A DNA stretch of 64,000 nucleotides from Pseudomonadota bacterium (GTDB taxonomy: Bacteria > Pseudomonadota > Gammaproteobacteria > Steroidobacterales > Woeseiaceae): the NCBI GenBank assembly GCA_022563195.1, contig JADFNV010000016.1:1-64000 (forward strand). Direction: 5' to 3'. Every line of letters begins with the position of its first letter. Position 1 is the first letter of the stretch. The position numbers were made by a program, and so were the translations under genes. Of the stretch, positions 62,180-64,000 are shown piece after piece. Below the pieces are notes generated by a model. It saw only the letters and a list, made by a program, of their open reading frames with translations, was not told where the DNA came from and ran no database searches.

Positions 62180-62254
62180 GGGGCGTTAGCTCAGAGGTAG
62201 AGCATTCGGCTTTTAACCGACTGGTCGTAGGTTCGATCCCTACACGCCCCACCA
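62180..62254 (+). tRNA. tRNA-Lys(UUU)
   Basis: GGGGCGT-TA-GCTC-AGAGGTA-GAGC-A-TTCGG-CTTTTAA-CCGAC-TGGTC-GTAGG-TTCGATC-CCTAC-ACGCCCC-ACCA; anticodon TTT, encoded CCA. Confidence 0.93.
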
Positions 62255-62385
62255 TTTAGTTTTCAACAACTTACGATAAAATCAACCGGTCAGACTTGGG
62301 CGCTAAAGTCTCATCTGAGTCTCATTCTTGTGCTGCTGGGGTCTGGCTAGGTGTTTTTCCTCAATTATTGAGTGTATAAAGAGAC

Positions 62386-62419
62386 GAGCCCCAGAGGTGT
62401 TTACGCACCCCTGAGGCTC
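62386..62419 (+). other. Leader hairpin
   Basis: GAGCCCCAGAGGTG-tttacg-CACCCCTGAGGCTC, 12/14 complementary. Confidence 0.6.
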
Positions 62420-62473
62420 TAACCATAACCAGCATGAAAGGTGTGCTAGCGATGGCTGACAATATGCTATCAG

Positions 62474-62510
62474 AAGGCGCGATTGTCTTAACGGGCAAGC
62501 GCGCTTTTTT
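62474..62510 (+). terminator. Rho-independent terminator / attenuator candidate
   Basis: AAGGCGCGATTGTC-TTAACG-GGCAAGCGCGCTTTTTT: about 13-bp stem with one mismatch followed by a T-tract. Confidence 0.65.
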
Positions 62511-62544
62511 GTGCCTGCTGGTTTCATCAACCAGGGGAATAATC

Positions 62545-62868
62545 ATGGCCAAAGAAATAATGGAAATTACAAACCGTATCGTCAGCGTAACCAGAAGGGG
62601 TTTTCTCGGTAAGGCTGGCAAGGTTCTTGCGATTAGTGCGGCGACAGTCGTACCGCTTCAATTGGTGAAAGCAGAGCCCTCAAAAAGGGCAGAAATGGCG
62701 AGGGCTCTACATGAGGCCGTGAGTCAGTTCGACGACGACAACAGCCCGTCCCACGTCCAGGTCTGCAACGATGGTCAGTCTCTCAGTCTGGCAATGGACG
62801 TTGTACGTGAGAGTTCAGTAGAGGAGATTGAAGTACAGCTATTACCGTTGTTTGGGGGTGTGTCGTGA
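62545..62868 (+). CDS. Small Tat-signal protein, unknown function
   Basis: MAKEIMEITNRIVSVTRRGFLGKAGKVLAISAATVVPLQLVKAEP (RRGFLGK twin-arginine); start chosen downstream of the terminator. Confidence 0.6.
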   Translation: MAKEIMEITNRIVSVTRRGFLGKAGKVLAISAATVVPLQLVKAEPSKRAEMARALHEAVSQFDDDNSPSHVQVCNDGQSLSLAMDVVRESSVEEIEVQLLPLFGGVS

Positions 62869-64000
62869 GGGTCGCTCAAGGGGGTTCACGCGCATCATCG
62901 CCTGAATTCTGGATGGTCGTTGCGACAAGGAACGGGGCCCAGACGCCCTACAATTTCCCAACTCAAGATTCGGCACAGCAGTATATGCAGAGCCTGTCGG
63001 GTATTGATGGTGTCCAATTATTGAAGATGCAGGGCAGCGAGCCAGTTCCGTATCAGAGGGACAATCAGAAAGTCATTTCGGGACCACCCGCCAAGGGCAA
63101 AGACGTAAAGCCAAAACTCCTATCTGGCAATCTCCCAGATCGGAAGCCCGTAGTGCTTAATATCCCGGGCCTTGAATGGGCCGGTTACTGCGAGGCCCCA
63201 CACTGGCACAGTTACGAGTTTATCGGCCACTACGACGCGCTGATGGCCCTGAGTTGTGTTGAGCAGCACATGTTGGCTGTCGGGATCTCACGCAAGAAAC
63301 AAGGAGAAGGTTTTGAAACGCAGGCACTCGTGAATAATCGTTTTCGCCTGGAATTGCGACGTGATTTTGAACTTGACGAGGCGGCACTAAGACCGTCTCC
63401 GAAAAGCAAACCGCGTGAGCATGACCCCATCAGTTCCGGCCTCAGGGAAGCAACCCGATTGATTGCGAAGTATCCGACAGGGCTCAGAGCGGACCTGTCT
63501 GCTGGTCTGTGCGCATCAGGGGGTAACGGATGGCAATTACTTCAATCCTTCCCGTGGCTGGCTGTACGCATCTTTGCGTTCCATGACAAACCCGCCGTTA
63601 GCGCGATGAAGCTTGTCAGGCAAGGCGCAAAAACTCGTGAGATAGCAGAGGCGGTCAACGTGCCTATGTGCTTCAAGCGATTCAGTCCAAAATGCAGCGA
63701 GCGCCTACTCAAATGTCATGAGGTTTTGGCAAAGCGCCCGGATATTGTGAGCCATCACTACCCGTCTAAGATCGGCTATCAGGGTTCATGGCTGACAAAT
63801 TTTGACAAGGCACTCAGTAGTGGTAGTGAGGAATTCGCATTCTGGGTTGCCGTGCACTGGCAGGATTTGCTTGAAAAGGAGGATGACCTGCAGATTATTC
63901 GTTCGACGGTCTGTGACCTGAGAGATTGGGTACGGGCTTGTGTGGTTCAGAGTATTGGCTCGAACGTCGATAGTGTTTGTCAGATTATCAATGACCGTGA
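62865..64000 (+). CDS. Large uncharacterised protein, possibly PcfJ-like; incomplete at window end
   Basis: GTG overlapping the stop of the preceding ORF (GTGA); open for about 378 codons to the edge; LVRQGAKTREIAEAVNVPMCFKRFSPKCSERL resembles PcfJ-like proteins. Confidence 0.7.
   Translation, partial: MRVAQGGSRASSPEFWMVVATRNGAQTPYNFPTQDSAQQYMQSLSGIDGVQLLKMQGSEPVPYQRDNQKVISGPPAKGKDVKPKLLSGNLPDRKPVVLNIPGLEWAGYCEAPHWHSYEFIGHYDALMALSCVEQHMLAVGISRKKQGEGFETQALVNNRFRLELRRDFELDEAALRPSPKSKPREHDPISSGLREATRLIAKYPTGLRADLSAGLCASGGNGWQLLQSFPWLAVRIFAFHDKPAVSAMKLVRQGAKTREIAEAVNVPMCFKRFSPKCSERLLKCHEVLAKRPDIVSHHYPSKIGYQGSWLTNFDKALSSGSEEFAFWVAVHWQDLLEKEDDLQIIRSTVCDLRDWVRACVVQSIGSNVDSVCQIINDR

Follow-up and report, generated by a model that had tools for sequence, protein, structure and literature searches.

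A structured leader RNA, probably targeted by a cis-encoded antisense RNA, at the apparent left end of a tRNA-Lys island

The window analysed here is a stretch of 64,000 nt (bases 1-64000 of a 64930-base contig) from the incomplete assembly, 82.65% complete, of a marine bacterium of the Woeseiaceae. Near its right-hand end, directly behind a tRNA-Lys gene, the original prediction had placed a hairpin, an intrinsic terminator, a 107-aa ORF and a further ORF starting in the stop codon of its neighbour. All of these are present, the hairpin at 62386-62419, the terminator at 62474-62510 and the two ORFs at 62545-62868 and from a GTG at 62865, among the following features.

62180-62254, + strand: tRNA-Lys(TTT), found by ARAGORN; the integration target
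62308-62324, + strand: GTCTCATCTGAGTCTCA as a paired repeat, probably serving as the left-end arm-type site of an integrase
62375-62380, + strand: TATAAA, -10-like box of a putative sense promoter, lying 6 nt upstream of the 5' hairpin
62386-62419, + strand: P1, the 5' hairpin; compensatory changes at 6 of its 12 pairs
62419-62425, + strand: CTAACCA, near-invariant single-stranded motif (alignment A4); CTAATCA in Escherichia coli symE
62430-62447, + strand: P2, Shine-Dalgarno (SD) hairpin of the leader ORF (AGCA/TGCT), with AAAGG (62437-62441) in the loop
62428-62522, + strand: P3, long-range pairing of ACCAGC (62428-62433) with GCTGGT (62517-62522); mutually exclusive with P2 and P4
62452-62868, + strand: leader ORF from AUGGCU, reading through the terminator and here fused in frame with ORF1; putative translation
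62464-62472, - strand: TGATAGCAT, predicted extended -10 of an antisense promoter, with a start near 62456
62474-62510, + strand: intrinsic terminator within the leader, with a T6 run; 4 compensatory pairs, 89% of cells paired
62518-62534, + strand: P4, CTGGTT (62518-62523) with AACCAG (62529-62534), overlapping the SD of ORF1 (AGGGG, 62533-62537)
62545-62868, + strand: ORF1, 107 aa, with a Tat-signal-like N-terminus (TRRGFLGKAG...)
62865-64529, + strand, running past the window end at 64000: ORF2, 554 aa, with its GTG start within the ORF1 stop (GTGA, 62865-62868)

Housekeeping synteny does stop at tRNA-Lys, as had been proposed: most relatives in which the locus was read continue from tRNA-Lys into an aspartokinase gene (translated start WKIHKFGGSSLAD...), and a same-genus search with the ybgF-tRNA flank gave ybgF–tRNA-Lys–aspartokinase, with nothing inserted, as the ancestral order. 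Such an empty site is found in relative G439, whose flank is 93% identical. In relatives G032, G436 and G016 the 3' half of tRNA-Lys is duplicated (50-54 nt) before aspartokinase, the att core in relatives being this 3' half from the anticodon loop onward. In G032 (93%) tRNA-Lys lies at a contig end, and a separate contig holds the 50-nt copy of the tRNA 3' half, with the same aspartokinase leader behind it. The tRNA-Lys of G436 is separated from its 54-nt copy by an element of 7.8 kb whose right end carries an integrase. A repeat of the form GTCTCA-N5-GTCTCA lies at either end of the element in G032 and in G436, and also occurs after tRNA-Lys in G440 and here at 62308-62324. Because relatives supply the empty site, the duplicated tRNA 3' half and the flanking repeats, we take tRNA-Lys to be the integration site and the window to contain the left end. 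The sequence following tRNA-Lys thus very likely represents an integrative island's left end, in keeping with the accessory, tRNA-linked locus first suggested; the alternative of a core region whose genes recur in syntenic relatives fails, ORF2 being present in none of the 60 nearest genomes. The 7.8-kb island of G436 (L137) resembles a phage satellite, with capsid-like, terminase-small-like and integrase genes (names by sequence reading).

With the contig stopping at 64930, neither the right end of this island nor an integrase of its own is in view. Beyond the window the contig holds the end of ORF2, then a small ORF and the first part of a further one; no integrase lies within the 2.7 kb of island available, and the second att repeat and aspartokinase are both absent from the incomplete assembly. 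Elsewhere in the host genome there are 10 integrase-family genes, none tied to the tRNA-Lys island. An ORF cut by the contig end (L005:3873-3930) starts MADSKPMYVATHEAAHAVVG, has an HExxH motif and possibly encodes a metalloprotease.

Two structures were counted on the leader alignment, one composed of the 5' hairpin, the SD hairpin, the terminator and the SD2 hairpin, the other of the long-range pairing P3. Both beat all 500 shuffles in covariation score and in double-change cells (52 double-change cells vs. 19 in shuffles, with 0 of 500 shuffles reaching 52). Because related sequences can exceed shuffles, more weight is given to a slid control, in which pairing falls from about 88-90% to 35-50%, and to the named compensatory pairs. 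Across the leader family 96% of cells are paired in P2 and 99.5% in P3 (outer pair GC in 23, AU in 5 and GU in 4); P4 is weak in the subgroup of leaders to which the window's copy belongs, and P2 with P4 together are only about 3-4 kcal/mol better than P3. Directly upstream of the 5' hairpin, tgcTATAAATagc is kept in most relatives; no match to a -35 box was found for the sense or the antisense promoter. In 27 of 32 copies the leader ORF has no stop before the gene start, which argues only weakly for coding because the +1 frame is also open in 22 of the 32. One copy (C24) has no AUG. A conserved leader peptide was considered and ruled out, as copies use different frames.

The leader is not peculiar to this island. 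A DNA search found three copies in the host genome beyond the window's own, four in all, and the leader recurs in many relatives (E down to 1e–47, far beyond chance), so the structured leader of the original prediction holds up. Of 73 congeneric genomes, 15 had matches to a covariance model. A further model, trained on 32 leaders, gave matches at E < 1e–14 within the genus, in a pair of sister genera from Woeseiaceae and in one genus of another family; from a class-wide sample it recovered only its own copies and weak short forms. Scanning 84,980 species genomes with a sequence pattern gave 20 stretches, all metagenome-assembled and 13 of them titled Woeseiaceae. The terminator-bearing form is confined to this group, where a genome may have up to 8 copies, one copy (C3) being truncated; since copies are related by descent, these counts are of non-independent events. 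It is practically certain that the copies belong to a structured, dispersed family of leader RNAs.

Behind most copies, at fixed spacing, lies a gene with its own ribosome site. In many relatives this first gene belongs to a small family with a core of ~90 residues, two predicted helices and no Pfam match; its predicted structure, of low confidence (pLDDT 64), has the two helices behind a disordered half and gave no significant fold match. ORF1 was tried as a member of this family, and no homology was found. The cargo behind other leaders includes full-length Dsr1 (2232 bits), Avs3a with Avs3b (2266 and 195 bits), the DRT AbiP2 (626 bits), an AbiEi-type protein and methylases. A tRNA is found upstream on the same strand in 13 of the 33 leader loci examined, and in several loci the interval from tRNA to leader holds a tyrosine integrase, one small gene and another integrase (PF12835); in L043, L058 and L060 a tyrosine integrase, a 130-aa protein and a PF12835 integrase form a conserved set between tRNA-Arg and the leader. 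With known tRNA-integrated and defence islands these elements share the tyrosine integrase at a tRNA, the duplicated tRNA 3' end, and Dsr1, Avs3 or DRT cargo. They differ in that one apparently RNA-controlled head is common to otherwise unlike islands, for which we know of no description and found none in the literature searched.

What points to an antisense RNA is a conserved block, ATGCTATCAG, whose opposite strand is TGATAGCAT. It is read in two different frames among the copies, and is therefore not kept for a peptide. The pattern ATNNTA occurs 11-14 nt from the AUG in 30 of the 32 leaders (offset 12-13) and in 8 of 11 other leaders, a set made up of short forms from other Gammaproteobacteria and E. 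coli symE, against a chance expectation of 1.6%; in L049 unimportant -10 positions have changed, with TG, TA and AT retained. Moreover, the reverse complement of P1 (62419-62386) scores as terminator-like on the minus strand; reading it as a terminator therefore predicts an antisense RNA of 75-80 nt that ends at P1.

The same layout is found at symE-SymR (RF01809), which has the 5' hairpin at the transcript start, the CTAAYCA motif, the SD hairpin and the AUG of the leader's 5' half, and a -10 on the opposite strand, thirteen nt past the A of the AUG, which the leader's antisense -10 matches in position; SymR, at 77 nt, falls within the length predicted here. Two silent changes in the SymR -10 (CATTCT to CACTCC) abolish SymR and raise SymE (PMC1891008). 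The symE gene sits among defence genes (mcrB, hsdS), and other leader copies also precede defence genes. However, symE is without the leader ORF, the terminator and P3/P4, all present in the Woeseiaceae leader, and encodes a toxin-like protein under LexA, whereas the first gene is ORF1 here and in most relatives a member of the unrelated helical family. The Woeseiaceae leader model picks the symE leader at 22.8 bits, with an E-value that is optimistic because the searched set was chosen for similarity. The Rfam symR model gives 33.7 bits for the C24 copy, vs. a gathering score of 61, and no match for the window. The 75-nt antisense RNA of R1162/RSF1010 (RF00043), which controls a replication gene, has the same order of hairpin, CUAACCA, SD hairpin and AUGGCU, and is the window's best Rfam match at 34.5 bits, below its gathering score of 55. 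PtaRNA1 (RF01811), a 72-nt antisense RNA, lies over a 5' leader as proposed here; it weakly matches leader L155 (27.8 bits vs. a cut-off of 47), and the window is unmatched. We consider it quite likely that the leader is under antisense-RNA control, by an RNA that is presumably both made and repressing.

In the mechanism we propose, sense transcription would start at about 62386, and an antisense RNA of ~75-80 nt would start on the other strand close to the leader start codon (about 62456) and end at the P1 reverse complement. When paired, the antisense RNA would cover the SD and start codon of the leader ORF as well as the CCAGC strand; with the leader untranslated, the terminator at 62474-62510 would stop transcription, and in this repressed state the distal GCTGG strand would pair across the first gene's ribosome site (P4). 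With little antisense RNA present, for example in a cell that the island has newly entered, ribosomes would start on the leader and CCAGC would be free to pair with GCTGG (P3); ribosomes crossing the terminator would then give read-through to ORF1 (Tat-like) and ORF2 (PcfJ-like). We favor as probable an island left end carrying a structured leader targeted by a cis-encoded antisense RNA of the SymR or R1162 kind. The full switch, with its P3/P4 logic, is proposed more tentatively and may well prove otherwise.

Much of the leader could also be put down to a plain transcription or translation attenuator, built of leader ORF, terminator and SD hairpin, with a protein or the translation state as its input and no antisense RNA. 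The conserved terminator, the reading frame open through it in 27 of 32 copies, the P3/P4 alternatives and the confinement of the terminator-bearing form to this group all suit such a device. We nonetheless consider it unlikely, because it leaves unexplained the frame-independent ATGCTATCAG block, the coincidence of that block with the SymR -10 offset in unrelated, terminator-less short forms, and the terminator-like character of P1 on the minus strand. A third reading takes the terminated 125-nt sense RNA, compact, structured and with a strong conserved terminator, for a trans-acting small RNA to which the downstream genes are incidental; this is improbable given the conserved ribosome site and AUGGCU inside the RNA, the gene with its own ribosome site at fixed spacing behind most copies, and the short relatives that start an ORF at the same AUGGCU.

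The genes behind the leader, which under the favored antisense account would be the ones controlled, bear on another alternative. The predicted Tat signal of ORF1 is evident as the motif TRRGFLGKAG, but its score against NCBIfam TIGR01409, 14.7 bits, is just under the cut-off of 16.7; we describe ORF1 as Tat-like and as a putative Tat substrate. ORF2 is, as originally described, open within the window, which holds ~2/3 of it, but on extension it ends at 64529. Its likeness to PcfJ (PF14284) was also anticipated, but the match lies at residues 434-515 (E 7e–4, 19.9 bits; 23.0 bits in the genome search; gathering cut-off 25), outside the segment quoted for it and outside the window. The C-terminal 80 residues share the HNC...Y, EI and Q/G/N pattern of PcfJ, whereas the N-terminal 400 residues have no recognised domain. 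The resemblance is real but weak, and because the score is sub-threshold we term ORF2 PcfJ-like rather than a certified member. No homologue was found for ORF1 in plasmids, or for ORF2 in 72,556 plasmids or in phages or viral contigs, and among 369 genomes of the class ORF2 had only one distant protein. PADLOC gave no match for ORF1-3, literature on PcfJ yielded only unrelated Caenorhabditis elegans plasmid names, and comparison of ORF2 with solved structures, tried and set aside, gave only chance matches to T-cell receptors. A Tat protein paired with a PcfJ-like protein did not emerge as a conserved arrangement: among 296 genomes of the order there were two further PcfJ loci, neither with a Tat partner. 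Since no such pair was found elsewhere, we treat ORF1 and ORF2 as cargo, for which a defence role is possible by company only. If the island were a conjugative or integrative-conjugative element, the PcfJ-type protein and its exported partner would act in transfer, which agrees with the confirmed island and the ORF2 C-terminus; against this, which we regard as very improbable, stand the lack of any transfer or conjugative gene in the 2.7 kb available, the plasmid and PcfJ-locus results just given, and the sister tRNA-Lys island in G436, whose phage-capsid-like, terminase-like and integrase-like genes, by sequence reading, are not those of transfer. Hardly credible, finally, is a dispersed repeat (REP or MITE-like) without regulatory role: there are several copies per genome, up to 8, and one truncated, but neither terminal inverted repeats nor target duplications were noted, and the leader has a fixed position before a gene, compensatory changes, and conserved promoter and ribosome sites.

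If true, the antisense account would bear on how horizontally acquired and often costly defence cargo stays quiet: a portable RNA head, used again and again, would make the expression of island genes depend on a cis antisense RNA, and control of the symE-SymR, R1162 and PtaRNA1 type would come together in a single leader architecture, extended by a new attenuator version. More speculatively, and on balance doubtfully, Woeseiaceae islands might share this RNA gate (antisense target, terminator and alternative SD pairings) before unrelated cargo, defence or other, which incoming or resident islands would express only when the common antisense RNA runs low; different islands in one cell could then cross-regulate through that RNA.

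Several further observations were made around the leaders. Short leader forms without the terminator occur in other Gammaproteobacteria (L025, L033, L152, L155, L157, L159 and L182), where the AUGGCU itself can start an ORF; at sub-threshold Rfam scores three of the short forms match symR and two R1162. An int-alpA RNA (RF02996, 61.9 bits, above cut-off) lies at L162:2116-2185, a few hundred bases from a short leader. Small ORFs behind leaders (L007 1500-2000 on the minus strand, L176 and L090) frequently terminate in GGAS, and the ATG that follows overlaps their stop (GGGGGTGCATCATGA), much as at the ORF1-ORF2 junction. Candidate integron attC-like motifs lie, by sequence reading, near the C85 leader copy. 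A stretch of ~50-95 nt (CAGTCGTTCAAACGTCGTAGAAATCGCC...GGCGGGAGTCGGCC) is repeated behind small-gene operons, at about 240-335 and 1240-1360 in L007 (C85) and about 1700-1790 in L006 (C3). A hairpin with a CsrA/RsmA-like CAGGGAYG loop, GGCCAGGGAYGGCC, occurs five times in the genome, vs. 0 for the reversed control, at L005:3555-3568 (contig 64555-64568), C3 10707-10720, C85 1344-1357, and C49 18761-18774 and 22150-22163; three of the five sites lie behind leader-headed small-gene operons.
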